A DNA stretch of 42,540 bases from a virus, in IMG/VR virus record IMGVR_UViG_3300020056_000057, positions 1-42,540 of that record; one strand, 5' to 3'. The notes below the pieces were generated by a model. It worked only from the letters and a program-made list of their open reading frames with translations. It did no database searches and had not been told where the DNA came from. The stretch's first letter is position 1. Each line of letters opens with the position of its first letter. The position numbers and the translations under genes are program-made. Shown here one piece after another: positions 24,159 through 41,739 of this stretch.

Positions 24159-24167
24159 AATAGTCTC
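24154..24167 (-). promoter_or_regulatory. ACTATTTA motif before the fibre cluster
   Basis: The coding strand reads GAGACTATTTATTT about 32 bases before the ATG at 24126. It overlaps the last codons and stop of the bS21-like gene. Confidence 0.4.
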
Positions 24168-24422: not shown

Positions 24423-24848
24423 CTATTTAAGTGCTTGCCAAATTTTACCAGCATTACCCATAATTGAACTGATGTCTACACCTGCATCATTAGGATCATC
24501 ACCTAAAACATTTGGTCTATGTGTTTCACCCACAGCGCCACCTTGTCTTAATGGCTCTGTACCTTCAAAAAGATCAACTCCATTGAAAGCTTCGTTGCCA
24601 ATTGAATCAAGTAACTTCTTACGATGCTCTTGTAGCTTCTGATTCACCTCTTGGGTCTTGCGCTTCATTTGCAAGTCTTCATTAAGTAGGTTGTCTTTTG
24701 ATTTCTTGTTCTCGACAATTGGTTGGCGTGTCATGCCTGAGGCAACCTGCGCCACAACCTCTGTGAGAAGTCCCTCTTCTATGAGCACCTCTTGGATACA
24801 TTCTTTGACGACTGGCTTGATTAATTTTTTGAGTTGTTCTTTGTTCAT
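24423..24848 (-). CDS. Putative prohead core / internal head protein
   Basis: A 141-residue protein whose first residues (MNKEQLKKLIKPVVKECIQE) form an amphipathic Lys/Glu helix with (I/L)xE sites IQE at 18-20 and LIE at 22-24, the T4 prohead-protease type. A charged coiled coil (MKRKTQEVNQKLQEHRKKLL) and an acidic C-terminus follow. Its ATG overlaps the protease stop (ATGA), the position comparable to the T4 small core genes 67 and 68 beside 21. I infer an internal core protein cleaved on head maturation. No enzymatic motif. Direct homology to gp67 or gp68 is not claimed. Confidence 0.6.
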   Translation of the reverse strand: MNKEQLKKLIKPVVKECIQEVLIEEGLLTEVVAQVASGMTRQPIVENKKSKDNLLNEDLQMKRKTQEVNQKLQEHRKKLLDSIGNEAFNGVDLFEGTEPLRQGGAVGETHRPNVLGDDPNDAGVDISSIMGNAGKIWQALK

Positions 24849-25444
24849 GATTCCTTCAAAACTTCGTTTAGTAATCTGTTGATGCGATCTGCTTTTGTAA
24901 AGACCTGATTAGTGTATTCTTTACCCTCTTTCATCATAAAAGCGTTAGGGGTTGAAGGCTCTGACACAAAGTCGAAGCAAATTAGTTGGAAGTCTTCTTG
25001 GACAACGACCTTACCTGTTGATTCTGAAACAGATCCCATACCGCGAGAAGAAATGCCAAGCTTGACGCCTGATTCTACGAGAGACTTAAGAACCTGACCC
25101 GACGGCGTGTTAAGAACCTTGATCTTACCCATTACGTTGTTGCCTTCCATCCAGATCTCTGTGACCAAGTGGCAAGCATTCTGTAGGTTGATTACCTGAC
25201 TATCGGGGTGATCTAATTCGCCTAGCGCTCTGTTTTCTTTCACTAGTTTCTGATAGTTCTGAACCTCTCGGGCTAAAACCTTGTAGGGGTAGACACGACC
25301 ATTGCCGTTCTGAACGTCGGCTTCTTGCAACTTACCCACAAGGTAAGTCATTCCGTTAGCGACATCCCTTCTTTCCTCTTCGGTAAGAAGGTCTTGGCAA
25401 ACACCGCCTTCACATAGTTCGTAGTATTCTCGTAGTAGTTTCAT
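24845..25444 (-). CDS. Prohead core protease (gp21-like)
   Basis: A 199-residue serine protease of the T4 gp21 type. Conserved features are NGNGRVYPYKVLAREVQNY, then RALGELDHPD with the catalytic His, and later VKLGISSRGMGSV with the nucleophilic Ser; these blocks are diagnostic. The enzyme is assembled inside the prohead, cuts scaffold, core and capsid proteins after (I/L)xE, then cuts itself. Its own N-terminus MKLLREYYELCEGG ends in LCE, a plausible self-cleavage site and core-targeting peptide. The start ATG at 25444 lies after a 108-base gap with a hairpin. It is followed by the core gene with a 4-base overlap. Confidence 0.93.
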   Translation of the reverse strand: MKLLREYYELCEGGVCQDLLTEEERRDVANGMTYLVGKLQEADVQNGNGRVYPYKVLAREVQNYQKLVKENRALGELDHPDSQVINLQNACHLVTEIWMEGNNVMGKIKVLNTPSGQVLKSLVESGVKLGISSRGMGSVSESTGKVVVQEDFQLICFDFVSEPSTPNAFMMKEGKEYTNQVFTKADRINRLLNEVLKES

Positions 25445-25467
25445 TTTTATTCTCTCAAAAGTAAAGT

Positions 25468-25482
25468 GCGGGCGTTACCCGC
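25468..25482 (-). terminator. GC hairpin in the 108-bp gap before the protease gene
   Basis: GCGGG-TAACG-CCCGC forms a 5-bp GC stem, followed on the coding strand by ACTTTACTTTTGAG. The U content is weak, so it is either a leaky terminator after the membrane protein gene or a leader element of the protease mRNA. The rest of the gap (25445-25552) shows no other clear feature apart from a loose CTACTATCTAAAT resembling the promoter-like motif. Confidence 0.3.
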
Positions 25483-25552
25483 GCGAGTTAGGAGCCTTTA
25501 CAGCAACGACGGACTGGTTGTAGTCCCCATTTAGATAGTAGAAAGTTGTTCA

Positions 25553-25894
25553 TTATTCTTCTCCGAAAAAGTTATCTTGTTTGTAGTTGTGCTTTATCAT
25601 GATTCCTTCATCGGAGAACACCATATTGAGAACATAGGATGTTGCGGACGAGAGACAACCAAGCAAGAAAGCATTGACTAGTGTAACGTCAAACGTAAAT
25701 AGTTCGGTCCAAGGAGAAAGCAGGACTAAAAACCATCCGACGTGAAATCCCATGCACATAGGGCAGTGAAAAACCTTGCCGTAGCCCCTGTAGGATTGCT
25801 TCTGAGGGCGTAGTTTTTTTAGTATGGGCATGTCACTATAGACTAAAATTTGTGTTAGTCCGTAGGCGATTAGGACGAATAATAAGAGTTCCAT
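25553..25894 (-). CDS. Small membrane protein with a CxxC motif
   Basis: A 113-residue membrane protein. Segment 1 (about residues 1-18, MELLLFVLIAYGLTQILV) is followed by a basic cytoplasmic stretch, then KVFHCPMCMGFHVGWFLVLL with a CPMC pair at the mouth of a second membrane helix, and a third helix (VNAFLLGCLSSATSYVLNMV). The pattern of a C..C.GF.VG next to a membrane helix is like small bacterial and phage proteins of the DUF1360 type, which I note with low certainty. Its ATG overlaps the previous stop (TAATG). A membrane protein within the head operon is unusual; it may act during lysis, superinfection exclusion or ejection (inference). Confidence 0.6.
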   Translation of the reverse strand: MELLLFVLIAYGLTQILVYSDMPILKKLRPQKQSYRGYGKVFHCPMCMGFHVGWFLVLLSPWTELFTFDVTLVNAFLLGCLSSATSYVLNMVFSDEGIMIKHNYKQDNFFGEE

Positions 25895-26586
25895 TATGGG
25901 TTACCTTGTAAATAATTTTTTAACCACGCGAGGGATTTCTTAATATAACTAATTGTATCAAAACTGCCCTCTCCTACATCTAATGTACTTTCAAAAAGTT
26001 GGTACAATGATTGAATAGCTGATGAATCAGTAATCCCTGCTTTCTGAGCTAATTCTTTAAAGAAATTTGAAAGTCCTCCTGCTGCTTCAGCACCTTTATA
26101 GATTTCATTAGCCGCTGCGCCTACGCAGATTATAAAAACTATAAATCCAGAGATAAAATCAACTTTTTCTTTATATTCGTTTGCTTGGTTTGGATCGGCA
26201 ACTTTAGCATCTATTAAGTGTTTTACAATCCTATTCATTCCTAAAGTGCCTAGTGTCTTAGTAGCCTCTTCAAGTCCTTTTTCCCATTTTGTAAAAACCT
26301 GACTTTGCGTTCCAGTAAATACTTCTTTCATCCAATTAGCAAATTTAAACAAAAGGGAACCTAAACCCAAACCACCAATCAATTTTATAAAAATACTTAC
26401 GGCAATTCCTGTTGCAATTACCTCATTTAAATCTTGCTCATCATTTATTTCGTCTTTAACATTTTTTTCGATTTCATCAAAATCAAACATAGATGCGATT
26501 ACTTTAGAAGGAACTGATGTATCCACATTTTCTTCTAAAATAAATTTGTCCCAGTTTTCCATTATGACTTTCATATCATTTGACAT
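25894..26586 (-). CDS. Membrane protein with capsid-targeting-like N-terminus
   Basis: A 230-residue protein. The start MSNDMKVIMENWDKFILEEN resembles the start of the ParB-like-fold protein at 34362-34988 (MKLIMESWRGYLKEQ) and ends in ILE at 16-18, the prohead-protease consensus. Two hydrophobic segments follow, about 58-85 (ATGIAVSIFIKLIGGLGLGS) and about 145-165 (FISGFIVFIICVGAAANEIY), with amphipathic helices between and after. A hydrophobic protein that is targeted to the prohead core would be a candidate ejection or pore protein, but this is inference. It has GGAG 6 bases before the ATG and sits between portal-proximal genes and the protease. No family recognised. Confidence 0.65.
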   Translation of the reverse strand: MSNDMKVIMENWDKFILEENVDTSVPSKVIASMFDFDEIEKNVKDEINDEQDLNEVIATGIAVSIFIKLIGGLGLGSLLFKFANWMKEVFTGTQSQVFTKWEKGLEEATKTLGTLGMNRIVKHLIDAKVADPNQANEYKEKVDFISGFIVFIICVGAAANEIYKGAEAAGGLSNFFKELAQKAGITDSSAIQSLYQLFESTLDVGEGSFDTISYIKKSLAWLKNYLQGNP

Positions 26587-26595
26587 AACGGTCTC

Positions 26596-27168: not shown

Positions 27169-27982
27169 CGTCGTAGATTTCCTTTACGAGTTCCTGTGTC
27201 TTTAAGATAGTCAACAGGGTTGTTTCATTTAAGCTTGTTTCTCCAGATAGGCTCTCAAGACGTTCCTTAACAGCGTTGGTCTTCTTGACCATTTCTGGAT
27301 CATTAGCGATCTCTTCTACCTTGACTGCCTCTGATAGGGACTGCTTTAGTCTGCCGAGTTCTCTGTTGAGATAAATCTTGGTCTCAAGTTCGTCGTGAGA
27401 GAAAGAAGAGATGTAGTGGTTGAGTAGTTCTTTTTGTTCTCGGAGCAAAGAGCCGTTGTATTTCTCGTTGAACTTCTTGGTGAAAGTCACAAATGTAAGT
27501 GAGTCAAGTGGTTCAAGGTTCTGCTCTTCTAGTTTGCCTACCATTCCTTCAATGATCTTTGACTCAAGCATTACTTTTTGCTTTGGTGAGTCAGTGTTGA
27601 ACATTTTCGCGATAGTTGCGAGAGACTTGTAGTTGGGGACAAAGTTGTTGAAAGTAGCAGGAGTTAGTTCCTTGTTGATGTCGTTAATGACTTCGGTCTG
27701 CTGCTTGAAAAGACCATCGGGATCGATAAGGCGTTTTGCTGCCATTACTGCTTCAAGAATCTTTTGACTTGTGTTCTCGTCAAGATCTTGGTTTTCATAA
27801 AGTGAGCGATAGCACTCAAGGTCTTTCTTTAGAAGAGAGTCGCCTGTAAAGTGTCTGCGAACGATAGAGACAACTTTTGCTTTCCGTTCTTGATCGCCCT
27901 TGATGATTGCGGTTGTTGCTTCGCGGGCGAGGGCTTCAAAAACGAAGGCTGTGTTCCTCTTCTTATTGTGTTTATTCTTCAT
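27152..27982 (-). CDS. Portal-linked head assembly protein of unknown function
   Basis: A 276-residue, mainly helical and charged protein. Starting from MKNKHNKKRNTAFVFEALA, it has a helix-rich composition with KKDLECYRSLYENQDLDENT and ETKIYLNRELGRLKQSLSEA, suggesting long coiled-coil or helical bundles. I chose the ATG at 27982 rather than an upstream start at 28018 because it overlaps the portal stop by 11 bases (ATGAAGAATAA) and the extra residues would only mirror the portal's C-terminal DNA. Genes in this slot next to the portal in T4-type marine phages are conserved and often listed as prohead structural proteins. A scaffolding or core function is possible. Confidence 0.65.
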   Translation of the reverse strand: MKNKHNKKRNTAFVFEALAREATTAIIKGDQERKAKVVSIVRRHFTGDSLLKKDLECYRSLYENQDLDENTSQKILEAVMAAKRLIDPDGLFKQQTEVINDINKELTPATFNNFVPNYKSLATIAKMFNTDSPKQKVMLESKIIEGMVGKLEEQNLEPLDSLTFVTFTKKFNEKYNGSLLREQKELLNHYISSFSHDELETKIYLNRELGRLKQSLSEAVKVEEIANDPEMVKKTNAVKERLESLSGETSLNETTLLTILKTQELVKEIYDDGSNS

Positions 27983-29978
27983 TGTTGGTCTCCGTAACCT
28001 TGTTCTCCAAAGATTCAATTAGCATCTTGACTGAGTTGTTTACTTCAAGAAGAGAGGTTTCCTCTTCCTGTTCTCTGAGGTAAATAGGGTCTTGCTCCTC
28101 ATAAATGCCTCTGGCTAGTGATCTTAGTTCTGGGGCACCAAGATTGTTAGTTCTGTAGGTGTTCATTTCGGGTGTTGGAACACTGCTGTAGTTTCTTGTT
28201 CTAGCACCTGCGGGTCGTTTATCGGTCGCTACCTTTTGATAGACTTTGCCTTTTGCGCCTTGGGTAACGTATTTTTTACCTGTTCTCGCGCGCTTGCCGA
28301 GTGAGGGCGCTAGACGCGGTGAAGGACGAGAGCCGGGAGGTGCTGCTAGAAGCGCGGATTCTTCGCCGCCGCCTGCTTCTTCGCCACCACCTTCGTCGCC
28401 GCCTAGATCAAGACCACCGCCTTCGTCGCCTCCACCGAGGTCTAAGCCGCCACCTTCATCTCCACCGCCGAGGTCAAGACCACCTCCGCCTTCTCCGCCA
28501 CCGCCGCCGCCTGCGGCTGCTTCGGCAACGCCCTCAAGGGCTGTGTCGTGTTTGCGGTCGTAGAACATCTCGCGCTGGTTGCGTAGGAACTCTTCGTGAG
28601 ACATTCCGAAAATGTTGTCGGCAACCCAGCGACGTGAGAAGTAGCCTTCTGTTGCTGCGGCAGCAATGTCGAACTTGGTCTTCCAGTGCTCTAGTTCCTG
28701 TAGTTCCGCAATCTTGCTTGGGTTATTGAGAGCGAGTTTGAAGTTCATAAGATCTTCACCTCTGTAACCAAGTGTGTAAAGGTGGATAATTCCAACCTTT
28801 TCTAGTTCGTGGATAACAGAACGCTGTAGACGCTGAATGGTGCGAGCAAAACGAATGTCTTTGGTCGCTAGTGTGGTTTTATCTTCCTGTGCTCCCTCAC
28901 CCATTGTGAGATAAGCCTGCGGGATCTTAATAGCGGAGAACATTTTGTCGCGGAGATACTTGATGTCGTCAATTTGTGTTGTGTTCTGTCCGCCAGCAAG
29001 TGACTGAATGTCGGTCACAGAACCAGCACGAATCGGAATGTAGTAGTCCTCTTCGATTGATAGTGGGTTGTAGCGAAGATCGATGCGACCTGTGTCTTTA
29101 TCAACAATTGTGTGTCTCTTCAACTGGGACACGATCTTCTGCATGTATTGCTCGACTTCTTGTGGAGGAATAGCGCCAACGTCAATCTTGAACACCTTGC
29201 GCTCTGAAGAACGAACAATGCGATAAGCCATCATTGCATCTTCCATTAGAGTCAACTGACGCCAGATGCGTCGTGCTGGCTCTAGGACAGATGTGCCGTA
29301 GGGTGAATACTTGTCGTTTCCAAGAATGCGGAAGTGGGCAACCTGCCAGTTCTCAAAGGTCATTCCTGCTGAGTTCCACTGATACTGGATATAGTTGGGG
29401 TTTGTGGCGTCCATTCCCTCTAGTCTCTCAACTTCTTGTAGGGGAAGAGCGATTGTAGATTTAATCCCAATCTCGTCATCAATATCAAGATAGAGGATGA
29501 AGTCGCCATACTTACACATTGTGCGGCACCAACCAAAGAGGTTGTGCTCTACGTTCATGATGTTGTGATAAAGAATGTTGAGAACGGCTTTGATTTCGTC
29601 ATTGCGGCACTTGATGTTTAGCATCGGAGAGAGAGTAGAGAATGTTGTCATCTCGTCTGCATAGATGTCGAGTGCAGAAGCCAATTCTGGCATGTACTCC
29701 ATTTGGTCAAAGTCAATGTAGCGCTCGGAACGACGCTGGTTTGCAATAGCGTTTGCAGCGATTGTGTCTAACGGGTTGTAGGACTGCTTCTTGAACTGCT
29801 GTCCTGACGCAGACTTGAATCTTGTAGAGTACTTATCAAGGTGCTGCCTGCGAATCTTGCGACCAGACTCTGAGCGGTAGTTAATGATAGGACCAGAGAA
29901 CAACCGAGTAAGAGACCTGAATAACTGGGAATCTCTATTCGCTGGGTTGTTGCCTTGTTTTGGGTTTCGGGGTGCCAT
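27972..29978 (-). CDS. Portal vertex protein (gp20-like)
   Basis: A 668-residue portal of the T4 gp20 family. Recognised parts are YIDFDQMEYMPELASALDIY near residue 85, then NNLFGWC-like AHFRILGNDKYSPYGTSVLE (DNA-side wing region) near 215, VRSSERKVFKIDVGAIPPQE near 255, and DDIKYLRDKMFSAIKIPQAY followed by FARTIQRLQRSVIHELEKVG (stem/crown) near 345-390. Dodecameric portals anchor the terminase motor and become the head-tail gate. The C-terminal quarter holds a Gly/Asp/Leu repeat (GGGLDLGGGDE, about residues 485-540), beyond the usual end of gp20, and then a basic stretch. The extension may be disordered. It lies 8 bases after the terminase stop. Confidence 0.92.
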   Translation of the reverse strand: MAPRNPKQGNNPANRDSQLFRSLTRLFSGPIINYRSESGRKIRRQHLDKYSTRFKSASGQQFKKQSYNPLDTIAANAIANQRRSERYIDFDQMEYMPELASALDIYADEMTTFSTLSPMLNIKCRNDEIKAVLNILYHNIMNVEHNLFGWCRTMCKYGDFILYLDIDDEIGIKSTIALPLQEVERLEGMDATNPNYIQYQWNSAGMTFENWQVAHFRILGNDKYSPYGTSVLEPARRIWRQLTLMEDAMMAYRIVRSSERKVFKIDVGAIPPQEVEQYMQKIVSQLKRHTIVDKDTGRIDLRYNPLSIEEDYYIPIRAGSVTDIQSLAGGQNTTQIDDIKYLRDKMFSAIKIPQAYLTMGEGAQEDKTTLATKDIRFARTIQRLQRSVIHELEKVGIIHLYTLGYRGEDLMNFKLALNNPSKIAELQELEHWKTKFDIAAAATEGYFSRRWVADNIFGMSHEEFLRNQREMFYDRKHDTALEGVAEAAAGGGGGGEGGGGLDLGGGDEGGGLDLGGGDEGGGLDLGGDEGGGEEAGGGEESALLAAPPGSRPSPRLAPSLGKRARTGKKYVTQGAKGKVYQKVATDKRPAGARTRNYSSVPTPEMNTYRTNNLGAPELRSLARGIYEEQDPIYLREQEEETSLLEVNNSVKMLIESLENKVTETNNEE
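28371..28512 (-). repeat. Short tandem repeat coding the portal Gly-rich segment
   Basis: About 30-33-base units repeat in the DNA that encodes successive GGGLDLGGGDE units. The units are similar but not identical. It explains the long antisense Pro/Ser-rich open frame on the other strand, which is not a gene. Confidence 0.75.
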
Positions 29979-29986
29979 TTATTTTC

Positions 29987-31567
29987 TCACTTAATTATCC
30001 ACATATATTGGGAATATAGATTTTTTGCTTCGTTCATTTTACTAGTTGTGTCTTCGCCTGTGTAGCCAATTTGTCCTTTTATCTGCGTGTTTAGGGTTGT
30101 TCTCGAAGTCATGATGGCGTCTACGAATGCCTTCTGGTAGTTGAGGTCTCGGGCGTTTGATTGGAGGGCTGTGTCTCTAACCCAACAACAAATCGCAAGA
30201 GCCATTACCAAGTCGTCATTGTAGCCCCTCATGGCTTGTGGCTTCCCGTTGTACCAAATGAAAGTTCGGAACTCGTTTGCTAAACGCGAAGAATACGTCT
30301 TAACTAGTTTGTTTCTCATAAACTCTTCTAACTTGGCTACGATGAGAGGTCTGGTCTTACTTGTGGTTGAAAAGCCAGCGATTGCTCCCGACTTGTGTTC
30401 GCCAAGATGTTGATCGATGTATTCGTGTGTGGACTTGATAGAGTAATAGAGATTTGGGTAGCCGTACTCTACTAATTTATCTATGACGGTGTAACCAATG
30501 GAGTTATTTTCTACGACGAGCATGGCGTTACCAAACTCTCTACCGACCTGATTTAGCATGTTGGCGTAGAGGTCAGGTGTTGGTTTGCCCATGTACTCTC
30601 CGATGATTTCCATCGTTTCAAGTTTCAGAATGTGGAACGTAGAACTATCTGCGCCGTCGCCTCGGGCAACGTCTGCGGACATGAGATAGTTACAACTTGG
30701 GTCGTACTCTTCCCATAGCCAGAAGTTTCTATCAAAGCCTGTCTTGTGTTTTGGCTCTTTGATGTTGGACATGATCCATTCCATGTTCTCTGGATCGATA
30801 ACAGTTTCACCAGAAGTATTGAAGTTACACTCCAACTCCTGAGCGATCTGTCTTCTGGACATGTTCTTGGTTTCTTTCTTGAACCATTCTTCATCTCTGT
30901 CTGGGTGAACCCACCACATAAGCGTCGTGAGATTGAAATTATTATCATTGGTCTCGGCACCTACGCAGGTTTTATGGAACCAGTTACCAACACCGTTTGG
31001 CGTGGAGATAGCGATACAGCGACCACCAGTTGATAGTGTTGGGTATAGACCAGTCCATAGTTCTTCTAGACCCTCGATGTGTGCAGCCTCGTCAAGAACG
31101 AGGAGGGATAGTGCTTCAGAACGACCAGCGTCGCCAGAGGTGGAGGCAGCCTTGATAGAAGAACCATTGGACAACTCGAAGGACGTGCGGTTGTCGGTTG
31201 TAATGTTTGCAATCCTGATCCAGTCAGGAAGGTTCTTCATAATGTTCTTGACTTTTCGGACCAAGTTGCCTGCTGTTTCAAACTTGGTCGCCATAACAAG
31301 AATGGTCTTGTCGCGGTGGAACAACATCATCCAAACAATGTAGCCAGCCGTGATCGTTGAGATACCTAGCTGGCGACCCTTGTTGATGATGTTGAAGCGG
31401 TAGTCGTTGAAATCTTCTAGCAGTTGATCCTGATAATCAAATGTCTTAAACAACATAAGCCCGTGCATCGGGTGAGAGATGCGGGCATAGTTTTTTAGGA
31501 AGTAAGAAGGATCTTTACCACACTTAACGACTTCTTTCAGTATTTGTTGTTTCGTTAACTTTGGCAT
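29987..31567 (-). CDS. Large terminase subunit, ATPase-nuclease (gp17-like)
   Basis: A 526-residue packaging motor. The ATPase half shows NIINKGRQLGISTITAGYIV (Walker A-like GRQLGIST near residue 62), then SLLVLDEAAHIEGLEELW (Walker B plus catalytic Glu near 160) and CIAISTPNGVGNWFH (coupling motif). The nuclease half has MSADVARGDGADSSTFHILK (first Asp near 300), then AMLVVENNSIGYTVIDKL and GYNDDLVMALAICCWV (last Asp pair), as in RNase H-type terminase nucleases. It cuts concatemers and pumps DNA through the portal. No adjacent small terminase is recognisable; the 182-residue gene just before it is one candidate. The ATG is at 31567, 11 bases after the previous stop. Confidence 0.95.
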   Translation of the reverse strand: MPKLTKQQILKEVVKCGKDPSYFLKNYARISHPMHGLMLFKTFDYQDQLLEDFNDYRFNIINKGRQLGISTITAGYIVWMMLFHRDKTILVMATKFETAGNLVRKVKNIMKNLPDWIRIANITTDNRTSFELSNGSSIKAASTSGDAGRSEALSLLVLDEAAHIEGLEELWTGLYPTLSTGGRCIAISTPNGVGNWFHKTCVGAETNDNNFNLTTLMWWVHPDRDEEWFKKETKNMSRRQIAQELECNFNTSGETVIDPENMEWIMSNIKEPKHKTGFDRNFWLWEEYDPSCNYLMSADVARGDGADSSTFHILKLETMEIIGEYMGKPTPDLYANMLNQVGREFGNAMLVVENNSIGYTVIDKLVEYGYPNLYYSIKSTHEYIDQHLGEHKSGAIAGFSTTSKTRPLIVAKLEEFMRNKLVKTYSSRLANEFRTFIWYNGKPQAMRGYNDDLVMALAICCWVRDTALQSNARDLNYQKAFVDAIMTSRTTLNTQIKGQIGYTGEDTTSKMNEAKNLYSQYMWIIK

Positions 31568-31578
31568 TCATCTTTCTT

Positions 31579-32127
31579 TTATTCTTTTTTGCCAGAGTTT
31601 GCGGGTCTCTTGTCGTTAGGGGCACGCTTACCATAACCACCTTGCTTCATAAAGGCTTCCCAGCCAGCAGCGAGTTTGTCTTCTGTGGCTTCGCCAACAA
31701 CAGCAACCTCTTCCATCCCACCAATCTTGTAGGTCATGCAAGCAGTAACCCAAGAACGGACGCGGGATGAGTTCTCAACGCGAATGTCAATCTCGCCTTC
31801 TTTGGTGAGAGACACAGAGCCAGCGCCTAGTTTGCGTGCTTCTTTCTTTAAGAACTTGATGATCTCGTTCATCTGCGATTCAACATCTGACTCAAAGCCG
31901 TTAGCGTAGACTTCCTTGAGTTGGACCTCAGACTGGTAAGAAAGGGTCATCATGTTGCCGTGGAACTTGACACCGAAGCCGTCCATAACACGCTTGTCAA
32001 TAAGAGGGCTGCCCTCTTCTCTTTTTAGTCCTGCCTTGATTGCTTCGCCGTCTGCGTCGTGTGCTCCGTCGTAAGCGTTTGCTGCGGCTTGTGATAGAGC
32101 CTGAACGATTTCGTAAACTGTTGCCAT
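31579..32127 (-). CDS. Conserved protein before the terminase, unknown (possible small terminase)
   Basis: A 182-residue protein that opens MATVYEIVQALSQAAANAYD and contains HGNMMTLSYQSEVQLKEVYA, then MNEIIKFLKKEARKLGAGSV and EGEIDIRVENSSRVRSWVTA, a mix of helices and strands. The C-terminus is basic and Pro/Lys-rich (YGKRAPNDKRPANSGKKE). It lies immediately before the large terminase, the usual site for a small terminase, but lacks an obvious DNA-binding helix-turn-helix. ATG overlaps the previous stop (TAATG). Its true role is not known; small-subunit function is a guess from position. Confidence 0.6.
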   Translation of the reverse strand: MATVYEIVQALSQAAANAYDGAHDADGEAIKAGLKREEGSPLIDKRVMDGFGVKFHGNMMTLSYQSEVQLKEVYANGFESDVESQMNEIIKFLKKEARKLGAGSVSLTKEGEIDIRVENSSRVRSWVTACMTYKIGGMEEVAVVGEATEDKLAAGWEAFMKQGGYGKRAPNDKRPANSGKKE

Positions 32128-32669
32128 TATTCCATTCCTTTGTTGTGCTTGCCATCTAAATAGTGGTAAACTTTACCTAAATAGTCGGCAGCAAGAGTAA
32201 TTTTTGCTTGAACCCAGCCGGGTAGGTCAGAGTATTCTGAAGCGAGTTGAGAGACCTTGGGGGCGTATTCTTCTAGTTTGTGAAGATCTGATAGAGCCAT
32301 GTGGACTTCGTGGTCATCATCTTCTATACCACCGGGCATCATTTGCTGTTCGTAGCCCTCTTTGACCATTCTTTTTTGTATTTGTTTCATAGCCTTTTCA
32401 AGAAAAGTTCTATGTTGTAGCAAATCGACACCTTCTGTTGCAGCAAGATCGGAGATAAACTTTTCTAACTGATCTACAATCTTCTGCTCTTGTGGTGTGA
32501 ACTCTCCACTTGTATCTTTAATTCTTTCTCTAGAAGTCTTGATTCTCTGCGTAGAAGACATAGAGCCTGTCTTTAGCTTTGTAGCGTTCTTGTCGCCAAT
32601 GTCTACTCGTTCTTCTTCTGCTTCTTTGAGAACTTCTCTGATTAGCTCTCTTAATTCACTAGCTTTCAT
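32127..32669 (-). CDS. Putative internal head protein with capsid-targeting-like N-terminus
   Basis: A 180-residue acidic/basic protein. The first residues MKASELRELIREVLKEAEEE form an amphipathic helix with IRE at 10-12 and LKE at 14-16, fitting the prohead-protease consensus. The centre has a helical part (QEQKIVDQLEKFISDLAATE). The C-terminus LPGWVQAKITLAADYLGKVY then HYLDG matches a short domain that I have seen at the end of several marine T4-type phage proteins, role unknown. I chose the ATG at 32669: GGAG precedes it by 5 bases and it overlaps the upstream stop by 11 bases, whereas an upstream in-frame start lies inside the neighbour. Capsid location is inferred. Confidence 0.65.
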   Translation of the reverse strand: MKASELRELIREVLKEAEEERVDIGDKNATKLKTGSMSSTQRIKTSRERIKDTSGEFTPQEQKIVDQLEKFISDLAATEGVDLLQHRTFLEKAMKQIQKRMVKEGYEQQMMPGGIEDDDHEVHMALSDLHKLEEYAPKVSQLASEYSDLPGWVQAKITLAADYLGKVYHYLDGKHNKGME

Positions 32670-34358: not shown

Positions 34359-34361
34359 TAT

Positions 34362-34988
34362 TTATTTCTTCATTGTTGTGCCACCACCAGAATGGCGCTT
34401 ACCCCCAATCGCATCGGTGTAAGCATTTGCAACCTTCAAGAGTTCTTTGATAGGCATGTTAACTTTTTCAATTGTCATTTTTTTCGCATCTTCTGGGTTT
34501 TGCGAATTATAAATTATTGTTGCTGCCCATCTATGGTGACCATCAAGCAGATAGTTATCAGCAGATACTAAGATAGAAGCATTCCAAGGAGCCCAGTCTA
34601 TCTTGGGATCTGCACCTGCTTTAGCTTTCTTCAATGCATTGTCCATATAAATGTCTGTTTGTGTTGGCTTGAGGTCGGATGGATCAACATTAGGTATTTC
34701 CCTAACTTCTACCTGATCACCTTCAGGGTATGCACCTGCATCATCTGATGAATCTAGATATGCTCTTGTGGCAGCACCAAGATCTGGGATCTTTTGTGGT
34801 TCATTTGTCTCTAGTCCCTTGGGAGGTGGCGCTTCCAATTCCTTTTCAAATGCGTCCGCATCTGGAATCTGCGGCATATTAGCCCTCTTTGTTCCATAGG
34901 CACCTTTACAGGCTGCGGGGAAGTTTGTACAAAAATCATTGCTTTGTTCTTTGAGGTAGCCTCTCCAGCTTTCCATTATAAGTTTCAT
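34362..34988 (-). CDS. ParB-like-fold protein with capsid-targeting-like N-terminus
   Basis: A 208-residue protein. The start MKLIMESWRGYLKEQSND matches the opening of the membrane protein at 25894-26586 and ends in LKE at 12-14, a prohead-protease site. After a Pro/Asp-rich linker comes NVDPSDLKPTQTDIYMDNAL and ILVSADNYLLDGHHRWAATI (about residues 140-165), where DGHHRW resembles the conserved D-G-x-HR motif of ParB/Srx-type folds that bind nucleotides or cut DNA. The C-terminal IEKVNMPIKELLKVANAYTD completes the fold. If packaged, it could enter the cell with the DNA and act on host DNA or nucleotides; this is inference. The stop of the holin-like gene lies 1 base upstream. Confidence 0.68.
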   Translation of the reverse strand: MKLIMESWRGYLKEQSNDFCTNFPAACKGAYGTKRANMPQIPDADAFEKELEAPPPKGLETNEPQKIPDLGAATRAYLDSSDDAGAYPEGDQVEVREIPNVDPSDLKPTQTDIYMDNALKKAKAGADPKIDWAPWNASILVSADNYLLDGHHRWAATIIYNSQNPEDAKKMTIEKVNMPIKELLKVANAYTDAIGGKRHSGGGTTMKK

Positions 34989-34989
34989 T

Positions 34990-35193: not shown

Positions 35194-35711
35194 TTGGCAC
35201 CCATCTTAACTAGTTGCTCGTAGATCATTCCGATGAGAACCGGAAGGGACATAGTGGCAATAAGGGGAGCCATCTTGGCCATGGCATCCTTGAAGATCAT
35301 TATGTTTTCTGCGTTGATGTTAGCAAGTTCTGGAGACTCCATCACTGGCTCGGTGGTGCCTTCTTGGAATACTCCATCGTCTGCTCCTATCATTCTTTCA
35401 AGTGCAGCCATGTCGGGCGGACTAAAGCCAGCCTGTTTTAACATTCCCATTCCCATTGAAGCCATCTTCAATGGATCGCTGCTGGCTCCTGCTGTTACAA
35501 GATAGTTAGAGAGTATGGAAATAGCATCATCTACTTTAGTTGTAACCATGCGCTCCATTTCTTGAGCGACCTGATCCATAGCGCCGCCTTTTTCCATTCC
35601 TGCTGGAACAGCATCGTCGTCGTATGGGTCGTCCATCATAGTAAGACCATCCATCTCGGACATAATTTCTTCCTTGATTAGATCAAGTAATGCTGACTTT
35701 TTGATTTTCAT
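35190..35711 (-). CDS. Putative internal head protein with hydrophobic C-terminus
   Basis: A 173-residue Met-rich protein. The first residues MKIKKSALLDLIKEEIMSEM are nearly the same as those of the next upstream gene (MKIKKSELKEIILEEIQSD), with IKE at 12-14 as a possible prohead-protease site. The body is acidic and Ala/Met-rich with a potential helix pair, and the C-terminus (about 150-170, PLIATMSLPVLIGMIYEQLV) is hydrophobic. ATG overlaps the previous stop by 4 bases. It is one of several proteins here that share this kind of N-terminus. No known domain; packaging into the head is inferred. Confidence 0.62.
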   Translation of the reverse strand: MKIKKSALLDLIKEEIMSEMDGLTMMDDPYDDDAVPAGMEKGGAMDQVAQEMERMVTTKVDDAISILSNYLVTAGASSDPLKMASMGMGMLKQAGFSPPDMAALERMIGADDGVFQEGTTEPVMESPELANINAENIMIFKDAMAKMAPLIATMSLPVLIGMIYEQLVKMGAK

Positions 35712-36283
35712 TTTTTATCCTTTGCGATCTTAGTCGCCGTTGCGTACATTACACTTTCGGCGTCATCGCCATAGCGTTTCTTGAAATCCTTCTTGGATTT
35801 CTTCATACCCTTAACTATTTTCTCTTTTTCGTTTTTTTCGCCCTTGGACAATTTTCTTTCGTTTAAAGAACCAGCGTATTCATCTGGTGACTGCCCGTTC
35901 ATCCAAGCGTCGTAGGGGTTTGGAGAATTATCATCAATCTGAGCGCCCTTCTGGAAAACAACAGCAATCCACTTTTCAAAAGACATTTCCTGTCCTGCTA
36001 CATCTTGCGCGGCATCCATCTTCTGTTGGTCTCTGAACTGCTCTGATTCCCTAACAGGCTCGGGCATAGGGCGTGTCTTTGGTTTGTAAGCGCGACCAAG
36101 CTGGCGCTGTGCTGTACCGATAGAAACACCGGATTCGCCTGTAAAAGCAGCAGCCAAGAAGTCAATACTAACATCAAGGTTGTCAATAGAGTCTGTCAAC
36201 TTGCTAATAGCCTTTAGCATTTCTGGGTCGGACTGAATCTCTTCTAGAATAATTTCTTTTAGTTCTGACTTCTTAATCTTCAT
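35708..36283 (-). CDS. Putative internal head protein with a conserved C-terminal motif
   Basis: A 191-residue protein. N-terminus MKIKKSELKEIILEEIQSDP has ILE at 12-14. A Pro-rich linker (YKPKTRPMPEPVRESEQFRD) precedes the central MSFEKWIAVVFQKG, and the C-terminus GMKKSKKDFKKRYGDDAESV then MYATATKIAKDKK is a basic helical motif that I have seen at the ends of assorted marine phage proteins. It begins 4 bases after the tubulin-like gene. Together with the next gene it may be a paralogous pair at the N-terminus. Its activity is unknown; internal head location is inferred. Confidence 0.65.
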   Translation of the reverse strand: MKIKKSELKEIILEEIQSDPEMLKAISKLTDSIDNLDVSIDFLAAAFTGESGVSIGTAQRQLGRAYKPKTRPMPEPVRESEQFRDQQKMDAAQDVAGQEMSFEKWIAVVFQKGAQIDDNSPNPYDAWMNGQSPDEYAGSLNERKLSKGEKNEKEKIVKGMKKSKKDFKKRYGDDAESVMYATATKIAKDKK

Positions 36284-36287
36284 TTAT

Positions 36288-37424
36288 TTATTTTCCTTTC
36301 TCGATACCATTCATAGATAGTATCGCAATCAGTCCGGGGACATTCTTTCGCACATAAACGCCAGAGAAAAGTGTTTCGCACCGCCCGCCAACATAAGCAA
36401 TCGCAGATTCAAGGTGCTTTGACACACGAGGATCGGCAACCATTTCTTCACTTGCTACAAGAATAAGCGAGCCTGCTGCGGCTTTACCCTTGGGTGGTGG
36501 ACAAGCAGAACGATTCATGCAGTTATGCATGATAGTTGTACCGAGTTTGCCCGTGTTTGGATCTTTGATCATTGTAGAGCCAATGAAGGCACGTCCATCT
36601 TTAGCAAAGCAAGTCTCCAAGTCCTTAGAGTCAAATGACTGGATTGGAGAATCCTCAGTAGATAGTTTGAGAATCTGTGCTAGAATCTTTGAGAACTGGG
36701 TGTTGGCTACTGGATACATTCCAAGCATTCCAATGCGACCGCGTAGGAGGCGTGTGGAGCGCTCGTTATCTAGAACGATGTGTGGATAAGGAGTTACATC
36801 GTTGAGTAGTGATAGGGCGTTCTTGGCGATAGTTGGGTTTAGGTTCTCTTGTGCTGTTGGCCAAGAGACAATGTAAACAACCTTGCCGCTTGCCTGAACA
36901 GATTGTAGGTAGCGCTCAAAGACGGGTTGTAGAGCGACGACAGAAGATCCTGTGCCTCCACCGCCACCAGCCATAACGAATAGCCAATCAACCTTGCCGA
37001 GTTTGATGCGGAGAGCATCTTCTACGATTGCGCCGTTCTGTGATAGAACTTCTTTGCCGTAGGAGATGTTCTTACCGATTCCGTCAGAGTCAGGAATAAG
37101 AACGACGTGCTCCTCTTCTACATTCTTCGGAATGTCTTTGCCAGTGCTGTTGACCAATAGGGTCTTGTTGAAACCCAACTCAATCATAGCGTTCGCCATC
37201 TTGTTGCCGCCGCCGCCAACACCAACAAAGCCCACATTCAAAGATGATGGGGCTGTGTTCTCGGGTAGTAGGTCTTCGTCAGAGTATTCCATCTGTAATC
37301 CGAAGTCCTCAACCATACCAAAGTCTTCCGCTTCTACTTCTTCGTGGAAGTGGTCCTTTTCTTGGTTGAATGATGGGGGTGCTTCTGCCGGGGGCAAGAA
37401 GCCAAACTCGTCGTCTTTACTCAT
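36288..37424 (-). CDS. FtsZ/tubulin-like GTPase
   Basis: A 378-residue protein of the tubulin/FtsZ superfamily. After an acidic 60-residue N-terminal tail come LNVGFVGVGGGGNKMANAMI (nucleotide loop, GVGGGG at 68-73) and WLFVMAGGGGGTGSSVVALQ (the tubulin signature GGGGGTGS at 153-160, phosphate-binding loop). IQSFDSKDLETCFAKDGRAF (261-280) aligns with the FtsZ T7 loop (xDxxDV...), keeping D265 and D268 needed for GTP hydrolysis between subunits. It should form GTP-dependent filaments. Phage relatives (PhuZ, TubZ) position DNA or capsids; whether this one does is unknown. The start codon overlaps the stop of the Mre11-Rad50 fusion (ATGA), so they are co-translated. The C-terminal 60 residues are not recognised. 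Confidence 0.85.
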   Translation of the reverse strand: MSKDDEFGFLPPAEAPPSFNQEKDHFHEEVEAEDFGMVEDFGLQMEYSDEDLLPENTAPSSLNVGFVGVGGGGNKMANAMIELGFNKTLLVNSTGKDIPKNVEEEHVVLIPDSDGIGKNISYGKEVLSQNGAIVEDALRIKLGKVDWLFVMAGGGGGTGSSVVALQPVFERYLQSVQASGKVVYIVSWPTAQENLNPTIAKNALSLLNDVTPYPHIVLDNERSTRLLRGRIGMLGMYPVANTQFSKILAQILKLSTEDSPIQSFDSKDLETCFAKDGRAFIGSTMIKDPNTGKLGTTIMHNCMNRSACPPPKGKAAAGSLILVASEEMVADPRVSKHLESAIAYVGGRCETLFSGVYVRKNVPGLIAILSMNGIEKGK

Positions 37425-40400
37425 TGATTTACCTTTGCAAAACCTGCTTCTTTCTCAATTACAATCTGCATGTCTACACAATCCTTGAGAGAATCAAGGT
37501 GAGAAATCAGCAAGACGTTCTTGAAATACACCTTAATTAGTTCCAAGATCCGAATAAATCCAGCCATATTCTCTTCGTCCAAAGCAGTGCCGGGCTCATC
37601 AAGCACAAACACGTCACCCTTGGGTAGAGAAGACACGGAGAGCAGAGCAAGACGAATAGCCATAGCAGCCATAGACTTCTCTGCACCAGACGCCATCTCA
37701 ATAGGGCGGGCATCGTGCTTGGGGTGCTTGATAAAAATGTCAAACTTGTTGCCAGATGTCTCAAAGAAAATCTCAAAGTCTACGACGTTTGATAGAATCT
37801 TTGCAATCTCTTCGTTGATTACTGGTAGCTTCTGCTTGATGATGTCGTAGGCAATCCCATTCGGATGCATACAGCGCAGGAATAGGTCATACGCTGCATA
37901 CTCCGATTGGATTGTCTCGAACTCTAGTCTTCTTTCTTTGAGGCTTTCGACTCGTTGTTCTTCTGAACCAAGTGATTTGTAAAGATCAATCTTCTTCTGG
38001 TTATTTGATCGATTCTCTCTCTCAAGAGATTTGATTTGATTGTCATGCTTATCCTTCTCCTTTATTAGTTTTTCTAGATTCTCAATCGCTTCCTTGTTGG
38101 AGTTGTATTCTGACTGCTCTGCGGCGAGTTCTTGTAGCCTTGTGTTGGTACGCTGAACTGCGCTGTTCATTCTTTCAATTGAGAGTTCCAGTTCCTTGAT
38201 AAAGGTCTGGGTGTTTACGCGCCGTGTTTCAAGCGCGTTGTACTTGTTTAGGTGATCTCGGACAATCTCGGGGTTGAGATCTTTGAGTGTCTCCCGAAGT
38301 TCAGCCACTTTTGATTCCACTTCTGGAATCGTTGCGGAAGCAACATGGGCATCGTGAATGAACTTGCAAGCAGGGAAAGATGAGCCGCAGGGGATGTCTT
38401 CTAGTAACTTCTTCTTCTCGGTTGCGATCTCCAATCTGCTTGTGAAGCCTTTGAGCTTCTCTTCAGTTTCCTGAATCGTCAAAAGAGAACCATTCAAAGA
38501 GTCGTAATCCAATGTTTTCATTAGATTATCGATCTTGACGATGCGCTCTTTCTCAGTAATTAGTTGCTCGGACTCTTCAATTACCGACTGAGACAGGGAA
38601 ATCACCTGATTTTTTAGTTTTCTTATCTCGGACTGAACGGCGTGAATGTCGATCGCTTCTGTTGGAATGTCGGTGATCTTACGAGACACCTCAAGCAAGA
38701 GGGTCTGCTCGGTCGCCAACTTGGTTTCTAGCAGTTTCTCTTCTGCCTCCACCACAGAAATAGCCTTTTTGTGAGCCGCAAAGGCTTCCTCTGCTTCCAG
38801 AATTTCTTTTTCGTAATCTCGCCCTTCTAGTTTTTTGACGAGCGCCTTGGACGAAATAGAGTCCTCTTTGGCTAGTTTGAACTTCTTATCAAAGAACTGA
38901 AGATCGAGGAACTTCGCAATGATTTCCTTGCGCTTGGTTGAGCCCTCGTTGATAAACGCAAGAGCGCCGTGCTGTGAGGACATAGACGAGATAAGGAAAT
39001 CGTCAATAGTTCCAAAGTGGCGTCGGATTGCTGCGTCGGTTTCGTTACGAGTTGTGCCGTTTAGCGAAGTAGTCTCGTCAAGAACAGCGTCATAGACCGA
39101 GAAGTCTAGTTCGGTCTTTGCTTCTGTGCTTTCGCCTGCTTTGCCTTTCTTGATGTACTTCGTTACCTTGCGGCGGATTGTGTAGGTCTTGTCGTCAATA
39201 GTGATAGACAAGTTGCCTTCACCCCAATCGCGGTTCTGGTTTACAACATTGACGTTCTTGCGCTCGTTCTTGGAGGTTGTGTTGAACATTGTAAAGAGAA
39301 TAGCGTCAATAATGGAAGACTTGCCTGAGAAGTTCTTACCAAAAATGCCGACGATTCCGTTTACATTATTGAAATCAACAGAGTTGTTCTCTCCATAGTT
39401 GAATAGGTTAGACCATTCAAACTTGACGAGATCCCAATTGACGTTTCTGGAAATGTCTTCTTTTGCCTCAACCTGAACGTTGTACTTTGAGTTCAGTTCG
39501 TAGACCTTTGATAGAGTGTCAGATTTGACTTGATAGTCTTTGAGATACTCTGAGATCAACTCCTGCTGGACTTCTGGATCTCGGAGGTTCTGTGCTCCAA
39601 GTCCGTCGGTCAAGTCCTCAACGTCTCCACGCTTACCTGCGGCACGATTGAGGAAAGAGATTGACTCTGGTCCGAACTTATGCTTCGCAACGTCTACTGC
39701 CTTACGCATAACATCAAGAGGCAGATTGTTGTCGCTCACAAGCCGTAGTCTTGCGTTTGCGGGCACGCTTGTTTTGCGAGGGATCTTGCCTGTTGCTGTT
39801 AGTTCAATCGTCATGAACGGACGCGGGTTCTGTAACGTAAAGTGCTCAATCTCCCAATCATCCTTGGAGTTGATAGTCCAAATAGAGAAACCCTTGTCGT
39901 CTTCCTCTCCGTGGTTCTGCTGGATTGTAGAGCCTGCGTAGTAGACACGACGCTCCTTGTCCAAGAACTGGCGTTTATGAATGTCGCCAAGCATAGCAAA
40001 GTCAAACTCTTCAAAGATTGAGAGGTTGTCCTCGCCGTGCTCCATAGTCCAGCCTGCGTCTGTTTGGCAGTTAGAGATTGCGCCGTGATAGAGGGCAATG
40101 TTGATCTTGTCTGGATTGGTTGGCTGGACCCAATTATCTCGGTCAAAAACTGATAGGACGTTTAGGACAAGATTGCCGTAGGCTAGGTGTGTCTCGCCTG
40201 AGTTCTTCAATAGACGCAGAGTCCCAAGATCAAGCGCCTGAATGATAGGCGTGATAGCGTCCTGACGGCTGCTATTCTTTAGGTTTCCATCGTGGTTACC
40301 AAGAATAACAAATGTCGTCGCAATCTTACTGAGATTGGTGAAAAAGTCAGACGCCATTTCCACAAACTCTGGGGAAATCTGGGTCTTTGTGTGTGCAATG

Positions 40401-40531
40401 TCGCCGCAGTGAACAATGTAATCTACTTCCTGCTGGCGCAGGATTTCGTACATCTGCCCAAAGCAGTTGCGATAGTCTTCGTGATACTTCAGGTTCTTGA
40501 TGTGAGTATCAGCAATGTGTGCGATTTTCAA
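37421..40531 (-). CDS. Single-chain Mre11-Rad50 recombination nuclease (gp47-gp46 / SbcD-SbcC fusion)
   Basis: A 1036-residue protein that joins both subunits normally encoded separately. N-terminal phosphoesterase: IAHIADTHIKN, VHCGDIAHTKTQ, LGNHDGN, then HGAISN and MLGDIHKRQ, the metal ligands of Mre11/gp47. From about residue 390 the Rad50 part: GIFGKNFSGKSSIIDAILFT (Walker A), a long coiled coil with CGSSFPACKF at about 713-720 as a putative zinc hook, and then ASGAEKSMAAMAIRLALLSV (signature) and GDVFVLDEPGTALDEENMAG (Walker B). The start is the TTG at 40531, 5 bases after AGGAGG and overlapping the upstream TGA; the in-frame ATG at 40558 lies inside the neighbour. It processes DNA ends for phage recombination-dependent replication. 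Confidence 0.93.
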   Translation of the reverse strand: MKIAHIADTHIKNLKYHEDYRNCFGQMYEILRQQEVDYIVHCGDIAHTKTQISPEFVEMASDFFTNLSKIATTFVILGNHDGNLKNSSRQDAITPIIQALDLGTLRLLKNSGETHLAYGNLVLNVLSVFDRDNWVQPTNPDKINIALYHGAISNCQTDAGWTMEHGEDNLSIFEEFDFAMLGDIHKRQFLDKERRVYYAGSTIQQNHGEEDDKGFSIWTINSKDDWEIEHFTLQNPRPFMTIELTATGKIPRKTSVPANARLRLVSDNNLPLDVMRKAVDVAKHKFGPESISFLNRAAGKRGDVEDLTDGLGAQNLRDPEVQQELISEYLKDYQVKSDTLSKVYELNSKYNVQVEAKEDISRNVNWDLVKFEWSNLFNYGENNSVDFNNVNGIVGIFGKNFSGKSSIIDAILFTMFNTTSKNERKNVNVVNQNRDWGEGNLSITIDDKTYTIRRKVTKYIKKGKAGESTEAKTELDFSVYDAVLDETTSLNGTTRNETDAAIRRHFGTIDDFLISSMSSQHGALAFINEGSTKRKEIIAKFLDLQFFDKKFKLAKEDSISSKALVKKLEGRDYEKEILEAEEAFAAHKKAISVVEAEEKLLETKLATEQTLLLEVSRKITDIPTEAIDIHAVQSEIRKLKNQVISLSQSVIEESEQLITEKERIVKIDNLMKTLDYDSLNGSLLTIQETEEKLKGFTSRLEIATEKKKLLEDIPCGSSFPACKFIHDAHVASATIPEVESKVAELRETLKDLNPEIVRDHLNKYNALETRRVNTQTFIKELELSIERMNSAVQRTNTRLQELAAEQSEYNSNKEAIENLEKLIKEKDKHDNQIKSLERENRSNNQKKIDLYKSLGSEEQRVESLKERRLEFETIQSEYAAYDLFLRCMHPNGIAYDIIKQKLPVINEEIAKILSNVVDFEIFFETSGNKFDIFIKHPKHDARPIEMASGAEKSMAAMAIRLALLSVSSLPKGDVFVLDEPGTALDEENMAGFIRILELIKVYFKNVLLISHLDSLKDCVDMQIVIEKEAGFAKVNQ

Positions 40532-40740
40532 TTGACCTCCTGCTCGCAAGTCTCCCATGGTGTGGCGTTAGGATGTCTCTGGGAGTAAAGTTCCGCAAGC
40601 GTCTCAAGGCTTGCTACTTCCTCTGCTGGCTCGGCTGGTGTGGATAGAGAACCATGAATTAATGCTGTGCCAGCATAGCCGAAAAAATAAAAAGTGATGA
40701 AAATTGCGAGCCCAAAACACGCTTTGAATAGTCTGCTCAT
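40528..40740 (-). CDS. Small single-span membrane or secreted protein
   Basis: A 70-residue protein: a basic start, MSRLFKACFGLAIFITFYFF as a membrane helix or signal anchor, then an acidic tail (STPAEPAEEVASLETLAELY). The ATG at 40740 is 5 bases after GGAGG; a second ATG three bases upstream is too close to it. Its TGA overlaps the TTG of the nuclease fusion, and probably couples their translation. Its role is not apparent. Confidence 0.6.
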   Translation of the reverse strand: MSRLFKACFGLAIFITFYFFGYAGTALIHGSLSTPAEPAEEVASLETLAELYSQRHPNATPWETCEQEVN

Positions 40741-40770
40741 CATTACCTCCAATAGTAATATAACCCAAGG

Positions 40771-41739
40771 CTAGTCTACTGTCAAGGAAATAATGTTGTC
40801 TCCAGCGCGCTGAAGTCCCGCTCTGGTCAACTTATCGTTAAGTTCTTTCTCTAATTGTCCAGAAGTTTCTGCGTTGCTTTTCTTTAATAGTTCTGCTTTG
40901 CCTAGTTCGTCAGATTGATCCCATGACTGGACTAAATCCAATACTACTTTTTTGGTTAGTTCTTGATATAAATCATAGGCGGTTGACCACTCGGGAGGAA
41001 GCACTTGCGCGCCCGAAACCATTCGTGCCTTATCTTCACCGCTTCCAGATGGCCATTTTCCTGTATTTCCAAAAACAAAATTTTCTAATTCTGGCAGATT
41101 GGCTATATCGCCCTCTAGAACACGCTCTACAACCCATTTTCTATATTGGTCTTTGCTTTTTAGAGAATTTGGCAGCGGTATGTTAGGAGGAATATCATTG
41201 TAATCTAGAGCAGCCATACCACCGGGTAGTGTGCTTGCGACGCGAGCGTATTCATAATTTAACTTTCCATCCTCTACCATATCATCAATTATTTTCCAAG
41301 CGGCTTCGACTCTTTGGGTATTGTCCATGTCAGAAAGATCAACAAGACCTAATTCTGCTGTTGGGTAGCCTTTGGAAAAATGCTTTTCTGCTGCTGCTGA
41401 CGGATCTTTGAGAGCACCAACATCAACTCCAAAACTTTTTAAAGTTTCATCATCAAGTTGTTGGACTTTTTCAACATCAGGCTGGATGCGTTGTTTTTGA
41501 GATGTAGATAGTCCTGCCACCCCTCCAAAAAGAAGTGCTACTGCGGCAAGCATAGAGATGCCAGCACGCTCTCGAAATTTTCTGGCTTTTACCCTCTTCT
41601 TTATAAATTCATCTTCGGCGTCTTCTTTAAGTCCAACAATCTGTCGAAGAAGTTCTTCAGCCTCTTCTTCGTCACGAGAGCGCTCTAATTCTTCTATAAT
41701 AATTCTTTTTATTTGTTTTCTAGTAAAAGTGTGTTTCAT
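40771..41739 (-). CDS. Membrane-anchored putative internal head protein
   Basis: A 322-residue protein starting MKHTFTRKQIKRIIIEELER, an amphipathic helix with IIE at 14-16 as a possible prohead-protease site, then a very charged stretch, one membrane helix (about residues 59-80, AGISMLAAVALLFGGVAGLS) and a soluble region with PPEWSTAYDLYQELTKKVVL and an acidic/basic C-terminus. It lies between the primase and nuclease genes, away from the head cluster, so the head link rests only on the N-terminus. I do not recognise the soluble part. It could be a cell-envelope or ejection protein. Confidence 0.6.
   Translation of the reverse strand: MKHTFTRKQIKRIIIEELERSRDEEEAEELLRQIVGLKEDAEDEFIKKRVKARKFRERAGISMLAAVALLFGGVAGLSTSQKQRIQPDVEKVQQLDDETLKSFGVDVGALKDPSAAAEKHFSKGYPTAELGLVDLSDMDNTQRVEAAWKIIDDMVEDGKLNYEYARVASTLPGGMAALDYNDIPPNIPLPNSLKSKDQYRKWVVERVLEGDIANLPELENFVFGNTGKWPSGSGEDKARMVSGAQVLPPEWSTAYDLYQELTKKVVLDLVQSWDQSDELGKAELLKKSNAETSGQLEKELNDKLTRAGLQRAGDNIISLTVD

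Follow-up and report, generated by a model that had tools for sequence, protein, structure and literature searches.

Two N-terminal leaders as probable capsid-targeting sequences in an uncultured lineage of T4-like marine phages

Does the virus behind IMG/VR record IMGVR_UViG_3300020056_000057 load a set of its own proteins into the head for delivery at infection, and can that set be recognized from its N-termini? The window analysed here is the whole record (42,540 bases), a fragment of a T4-like myovirus. A sequence-only reading had singled out eight genes, ending at 24423, 24845, 25894, 32127, 34362, 35190, 35708 and 40771, as packaged cargo with a T4-like capsid-targeting sequence (CTS): a short amphipathic helix ending in (I/L)xE, after which a gp21-like protease would cut. 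The coordinates and N-termini it gave for these genes are correct. Comparison with relatives revealed two distinct leaders, T1 and T2, which are probably the capsid-targeting sequences of a widespread, largely uncultured lineage of T4-like marine phages and mark injected cargo.

The T4 protease gp21 cleaves behind L/I-X-E, and for internal protein (IP) IPIII the ten N-terminal residues suffice for targeting and packaging (PMC9026906). The internal proteins of T-even phages form a diverse anti-restriction set sharing only the CTS (PMC3012670).

Two leaders recur on unrelated proteins

Taken literally, the (I/L)xE pattern is a poor guide to such proteins. All eight genes carry it within about 20 residues, as do seven other window proteins; [IL]xE occurs within the first 22 residues of 15/41 window proteins, against 9.3 +/- 2.2 for shuffled N-termini (p=0.014). 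Because of these seven further matches, the pattern alone is a weak criterion, and we rejected it as the signal. Nor did the proposed amphipathicity hold up, as the hydrophobic moment (muH) did not differ significantly from that of shuffled sequences (p=0.24 for T1, p=0.056 for T2).

Relatives were sought by scanning IMG/VR with the gp17-like terminase of the window, which returned many uncultured relatives. Seven long records (G001-G007, 90-195 kb) were read whole and form, with the window, a set of eight records; G007 repeats the gene content of the window and runs beyond it. Two conserved leaders emerged from the whole relatives, T1 (MKITKxQLKQIIKEEL) and T2 (MKLLxENWRKFLNE). Position profiles were trained solely on G001, G002 and G006; the other records (the window, G003, G004, G005 and G007) served as the test set, at a threshold of 10 bits. 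In this held-out set, T1 started 30 and T2 26 of 717 proteins, where shuffled N-termini gave 0.15 (T1) and 0.1 (T2). Of ~158,000 internal windows, 6 (T1) and 3 (T2) reached the threshold. Enrichment over shuffled N-termini is thus weak for the literal pattern, but far above chance for the two specific leaders.

Complementarily, a motif-free test compared residues 2-17 across all pairs of proteins with unrelated bodies. Similar N-terminal pairs numbered 48 in G003, 41 in G001, 37 in G002 and 32 in G004, against 0.08-0.38 at internal offsets (0.08 in G003). The same test recovered the known IPII/IPIII pair of T4 and gave no pairs in cyanophage S-RSM4. The de novo clusters that it produced were T1, T2 and a few ordinary families. 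Protein families of 60-72 amino acids (aa) starting with MKVGDLV also occur in many diverged copies per genome (G001, G002, G003); these N-terminal clusters look like one small domain family rather than a tag and were set aside. A literature search for IIKEEL, the core of T1, found no mention in phage papers.

Five genes of the window are strongly tagged and a sixth is tagged by homology (nt, nucleotide positions; all on the minus strand):

25894..26586 (-): T2-tagged protein, 230 aa; tag MKVIMENWDKFILE, residues 5-18 (nt 26533-26574); T2 33.3 bits; predicted cut after ILE18
34362..34988 (-): T2-tagged protein, 208 aa, ParB/Srx-like DGHHRW body; tag MKLIMESWRGYLKE, residues 1-14 (nt 34947-34988); T2 31.3 bits
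35190..35711 (-): T1-tagged protein, 173 aa; tag MKIKKSALLDLIKEEI (nt 35664-35711); T1 28.2 bits; homologs T1-tagged in 32/37
35708..36283 (-): T1-tagged protein, 191 aa; tag MKIKKSELKEIILEEI (nt 36236-36283); T1 40.4 bits; homologs T1-tagged in 47/57
40771..41739 (-): T1-tagged protein, 322 aa; tag MKHTFTRKQIKRIIIEEL (nt 41686-41739); T1 14.6 bits; T1-tagged homologs in G003, G005 and G007
32127..32669 (-): shortened T1 MKASELRELIREVLKE read from an internal ATG (nt 32622-32669); the called open reading frame (ORF) starts at TTG 32744

The tag of 32127 is two residues short of T1 and scores 26 bits when this is allowed for; its homologs bear a canonical T1, for example MKLTKTQLRQIIEEEI. The body of 34362 matches phrog_2859 and ParB-like families, and its structure prediction (pLDDT 32 from 5 sequences) was not used. 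Six of the eight proposed cargo genes therefore stand, whereas 24423 and 24845 belong with the prohead, the former putatively.

The leaders are modular and have been exchanged

Across the eight records, 94 tagged proteins fell into 60 body families, with 13-18 tagged proteins per record of ~155-195 kb. Adding IMG/VR loci found by the DNA pattern of the tags raised this to at least 974 distinct tagged proteins and at least 459 body families, the prevalence found by DNA pattern being a lower bound. Among the matches listed, the tag DNA patterns fell at gene starts rather than elsewhere in ratios of 162:0 (T2) and 137:2 (T1). When tagged proteins with unrelated bodies were naively aligned, M1 and E14 were the sole near-invariant columns, with E14 at >=90% in three alignments.

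Tags have also changed places. T1 and T2 were swapped on homologous bodies in the pairs L403:6018/L227:145 (98% coverage) and L044:7870/L089:9774 (76% identity), and the family of window gene 34362 likewise carries T2 or T1 on homologous bodies. Conversely, gene 25894 sits in a slot upstream of the protease that is T2-tagged in relatives too; the 51 distinct T2-tagged proteins encoded there have 10 unrelated bodies. Tagged genes are grouped in variable runs. In L378, about 12 neighbouring tagged genes with differing bodies lie within a 7-kb stretch.

Shared N-termini could also be relics of recombination, 5' ends copied between genes without any function. The grouping in runs would fit this, as would codon use: identical tag residues share codons at 0.58 and 0.67, versus ~0.4 expected from codon usage. 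As tag codons are more alike than random, shared descent does contribute to the tags. Within a genome, however, tag nucleotide identity is no more than 0.77-0.78 although the residues are retained, with partial randomisation of synonymous codons. Relics are also hard to reconcile with the E14 column of the unrelated-body alignments and with the compensation of displaced cleavage sites described below. We consider functionless copying barely credible and read the history of the tags, from their codons and residues, as shared descent plus selection on amino acids.

A predicted protease site is kept at the end of the leaders

Both leaders lose their conservation close to an [ILV]xE site that fits the cleavage rule of T4 gp21. 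At residue 14, this motif is present in 98% of T1 and 74% of T2 leaders. T2 leaders without it carry [ILV]xE at residues 15-19 in 62/85 cases (73%), compared with 6.9% further downstream in the same proteins and 4.4% in T2 tags that have the E14 site. It follows that the motif is retained whatever the helix register. T1 has a second [ILV]xE at residues 17-24 in 62% of cases (background 10%), and L20 and E22 are linked there (odds ratio 8.3, p=3e-27). The near-invariance of E15 makes cleavage of T1 likelier at this second site than at IKE14. The rule proposed by the sequence-only reading thus fits, while for T1 the cut would probably lie further downstream than the listed site. In the major capsid protein, the propeptide ends in LL(R/K)E, which is conserved in 16 orthologs and followed by variable residues, consistent with the same [ILV]xE rule.

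The leaders resemble the protease and its neighbour

The predicted gp21-like enzyme is indeed encoded in the window, next to a small conserved gene:

24845..25444 (-): prohead protease, Peptidase_S77 / T4 gp21 family; PF03420 E=5.9e-32; T2-like N-terminus MKLLREYYELCEGG
24423..24848 (-): putative prohead core protein, conserved (105 orthologs), overlapping the protease stop; T1-like N-terminus MNKEQLKKLIKPVVKECIQEVLIEE

The protease is the candidate tag-removing enzyme. It is <47% identical to proteins of named phages, and no named-phage homolog was found for the 24423 protein, which we take as a likely prohead component because of its place beside the protease and its conservation, there being no family match. 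PF03420 was found in 12/18 long tagged records, including 10/10 of those >=145 kb; the six without it are fragments of 75-124 kb.

When 1,178 untagged proteins were ranked by likeness to the tags, the 24423 family took ranks 1-5, 8 and 9 for T1, and orthologs of the S77 protease took ranks 1-4 for T2, with capsid and scaffold proteins within the T2 top 25. The T2 profile also scored T4 head-core proteins above other T4 proteins (p=0.006). The ranks of the protease and its neighbour suggest that the tags imitate resident core proteins.

These rankings bear on a further alternative, in which the tags are unconnected with the head and instead send proteins elsewhere (such as a membrane, the tail or a replication compartment) or influence translation. 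The tags are N-terminal, T2 is helix-like with a Trp, and direct virion data were not found, all of which such a role would allow. It would leave unexplained why the N-termini of the protease and its neighbour resemble the tags above all other proteins, why [ILV]xE is selected separately from the helix register and why an S77 protease is present in all long tagged records (>=145 kb). We therefore regard another destination as quite improbable.

Tagged bodies include many enzymes

Most tagged bodies have no recognizable domain. Those recognized by Pfam include SAM lyase (S-adenosylmethionine lyase), protein-kinase-like, Nudix and PGDYG families; further bodies were recognized as seven HAD_SAK proteins, zeta toxin/P-loop kinases, TseH-like, GNAT, pentapeptide repeats, poly(A)/CCA polymerase, 2H phosphoesterase, YkuD, M23, DnaJ and guanylate kinase. 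In members checked singly, the domain starts after the tag. The Pfam lists of tagged bodies contain neither replication nor tail families. The tagged HADs are of predicted RNA-repair type; no named-phage homolog was found for the tagged HAD protein. PADLOC matches among tagged proteins were not used as evidence, as kinase-like and other general folds match there.

The body of tagged protein L154:1496-2128 matches PF23780 (E=8.2e-11, above the family cut-off), and the top seven PDB matches in a fold search were phage SAM lyases, that of T3 first (best E=1.8e-3; matches include 8bb1, 7ock, 6zm9 and 6znb). By family profile and fold, it is a predicted SAM lyase. Its predicted structure has low confidence at residues 1-14 and is folded thereafter. 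The SAM lyase (SAMase) of T3, which shares this profile and fold, is a known anti-restriction enzyme made after injection, whereas the leader on the tagged L154 homolog points to packaging. Across 47 diverse phage loci of the SAM-lyase-like family, scanned without imposing the P1 residue, leaders are unrelated and differ in length, and the residue before SSLSR is E in 45/47, with L/I/V/F at P3 in 45/47. Members of this family (L460-L536) occur in Campylobacter, Prevotella Lak, Alishewanella and Microcystis phages, and their leader ends in [LIVF]xE in nearly all.

Alternatively, T1 and T2 might be prohead targeting and cleavage signals on proteins that are mostly structural or core components, kept or degraded in the head without any action in the host. 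The many bodies without a recognizable domain, several of them small and acidic, would suit such a role; T4 itself consumes the core proteins gp67, gp68 and gp22 (PMC9026906), and a single body family accounts for 27/51 distinct proteins in the protease-adjacent slot. Enzymes without an evident capsid role argue the other way (the SAM lyase fold, kinase-like proteins, CCA/poly(A) polymerase, zeta/P-loop kinases, Nudix, DnaJ, M23 and YkuD), as does the arrangement of tagged genes in variable runs. A mainly structural role for the tagged proteins is, on this evidence, unlikely.

Relation to known packaging systems

The closest parallel is the T4 set IPI/IPII/IPIII and Alt, whose CTS (MKTYQEFIAE) is cut by gp21. 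As there, a short N-terminal leader with (I/L)xE at its end precedes unrelated proteins, as seen in both the motif-free pairs and the body clustering; a gp21-family protease is encoded in the same phage (the window and tagged records >=145 kb), alongside gp20-, gp23- and gp17-like genes, and the diverse bodies include known or predicted anti-restriction functions. The leader sequences, in contrast, are unlike MKTYQEFIAE. T4 internal proteins score between -11 and -18 bits against the T1 and T2 profiles, so that a single T4-like CTS was rejected, and no protein reaches 8 bits in the stretches of T4 (minus its last 19 kb) or cyanophage S-RSM4 that were searched. T4 tags a handful of proteins, whereas the T1/T2 lineage has two tag classes, each resembling the protease or its neighbour, and an enzyme-rich cargo.

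In the giant phages phiKZ and SPN3US, a prohead protease also removes propeptides from several head and ejection proteins, and the paralogs gp53/gp54 have identical N-termini (PMC5694885). Several of these propeptides exceed 100 residues, with sites such as AxE and SxE, unlike the ~15-22 residues and [ILV]xE of T1 and T2. Nearer to the window, Flavobacterium phage immuto (NC_055915; L453-L455) carries repeated N-termini on different proteins, namely MKKSQLRQIIKEAL (5), MENFDLKKFLVENKLT (4) and MKKQILSEQFKRMQKLAGIITES (2), along with an S77 protease and a large terminase (TerL) 44% identical to that of the window. Its leaders, known from sequence alone, are unlike T1 and T2, which suggests that each lineage has its own tags. 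For the nearest isolate, no virion proteomics was found; a paper on Baltic Flavobacterium phages (PMC7077304) covers other phages and is without mass spectrometry.

Head module and other genes of the window

By family profile matches, homologs of gp17, gp20, gp21 and gp23 are all present in the window, which thus has a T4-like head module. Besides the protease, it comprises:

29987..31567 (-): gp17-like large terminase; PF03237 E=1.7e-10
27972..29978 (-): gp20-like portal protein; PF07230 E=3.2e-76
11798..13681 (-): gp23-like major capsid protein; PF07068 E=4.9e-72; predicted propeptide cut after LRE60 (nt 13502-13510), LLRE/STT
13710..14948 (-): candidate gp22-like scaffold of acidic composition, encoded immediately upstream of the capsid gene; family matches marginal at best

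The terminase is ~43-44% identical to those of the nearest named phages, Microcystis phage Mel-JY01 and immuto, and hence distant. One relative contig, L452, belongs to a Flavobacteriaceae metagenome-assembled genome, a weak hint at a host in this family.

At 627 aa, the capsid protein is longer than that of T4 (521 aa); its match to Gp23 is split into two separate stretches, so that the protein probably carries an inserted domain. Residues 20-36 of its propeptide (nt 13574-13624, minus strand) form a conserved ALLxKWxxTGLLEG helix resembling T2 and T4 gp23 ELLNKWKPLLEG, which may be the original core-binding element.

Three further genes adjoin those discussed above:

36288..37424 (-): Tubulin/FtsZ-family GTPase domain (PF00091 E=1.3e-8), between a recombination gene and the T1-tagged gene 35708
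37421..40558 (-): single ORF of 1,045 aa with a calcineurin-like nuclease domain and an SMC/Rad50-type ATPase, apparently gp47 and gp46 homologs fused in one protein
24166..24414 (-): ribosomal protein bS21 homolog (PF01165 E=1.4e-9), directly after the putative core protein 24423; a bS21-like gene lies in the equivalent place in L452

Discussion

Comparative sequence evidence strongly supports a T4-style capsid-targeting and cleavage signal on unrelated cargo, as the sequence-only reading had proposed, although there are two tag classes and neither has the sequence used by T4. The case is carried by shared N-terminal modules, their modularity, the tag swaps, the apparently selected [ILV]xE and the association with the protease. 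From these, we infer core recognition, cleavage, presence in the virion, ejection and effector roles.

Several observations weigh against this interpretation, in addition to the shared tag codons. T4 and S-RSM4 lack T1 and T2 tags though both have the protease. Glutamate occupies P1' of the residue-14 site in 94% of T1 leaders (E15), which is more in keeping with a helix than with a scissile bond, and the invariant E of the SAM-lyase-like family could belong to the fold. Late-promoter motifs of the TATAAATA and CTAAATA types were not enriched upstream of tagged genes, and no virion proteomics for the T1/T2 lineage was found in the literature searched.

In the mechanism we propose, a tagged protein would enter the growing prohead core by mimicry, with its first ~15-22 residues resembling the N-terminus of a resident core component: for T1 that of the 24423 protein, for T2 that of the gp21-type protease. 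The S77 protease would then cut after [ILV]xE, in T2 at residue 14 or a site shifted to 15-19 and in T1 probably at the second site (17-24). The freed body would stay in the head with the DNA and enter the host at infection, where it may act as an early take-over or counter-defence protein, as T4 IPI and Alt do.

Going further, we lean, if only slightly, towards seeing T1 and T2 as a two-tag packaging code, in which the tags dock on different core partners by imitation, the cargo is an exchangeable, pre-loaded arsenal of counter-defence and repair enzymes (>12 proteins per genome and hundreds of families across the lineage) and the injected proteome can be read from sequence. In concept, capsid targeting by a shared leader is of the T4 CTS type and had been anticipated for T4-like phages (PMC9026906). 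The novel elements are the sequences of the two tags, how many proteins carry them and of what kinds, the tag swaps, and the likeness of the tags to the N-termini of the protease and its neighbour.

Injected proteins are usually identified phage by phage via mass spectrometry, which places uncultured phages beyond reach. If the interpretation of T1 and T2 as capsid-targeting sequences is right, the first 15 residues would be enough to assign hundreds of families of uncharacterized proteins in marine viromes to the head cargo. This would yield a list of counter-defence candidates (SAM lyase, RNA repair, kinases and cell-wall enzymes). The leaders would also provide new tags for capsid loading and allow the way in which cargo enters the prohead core to be tested directly.

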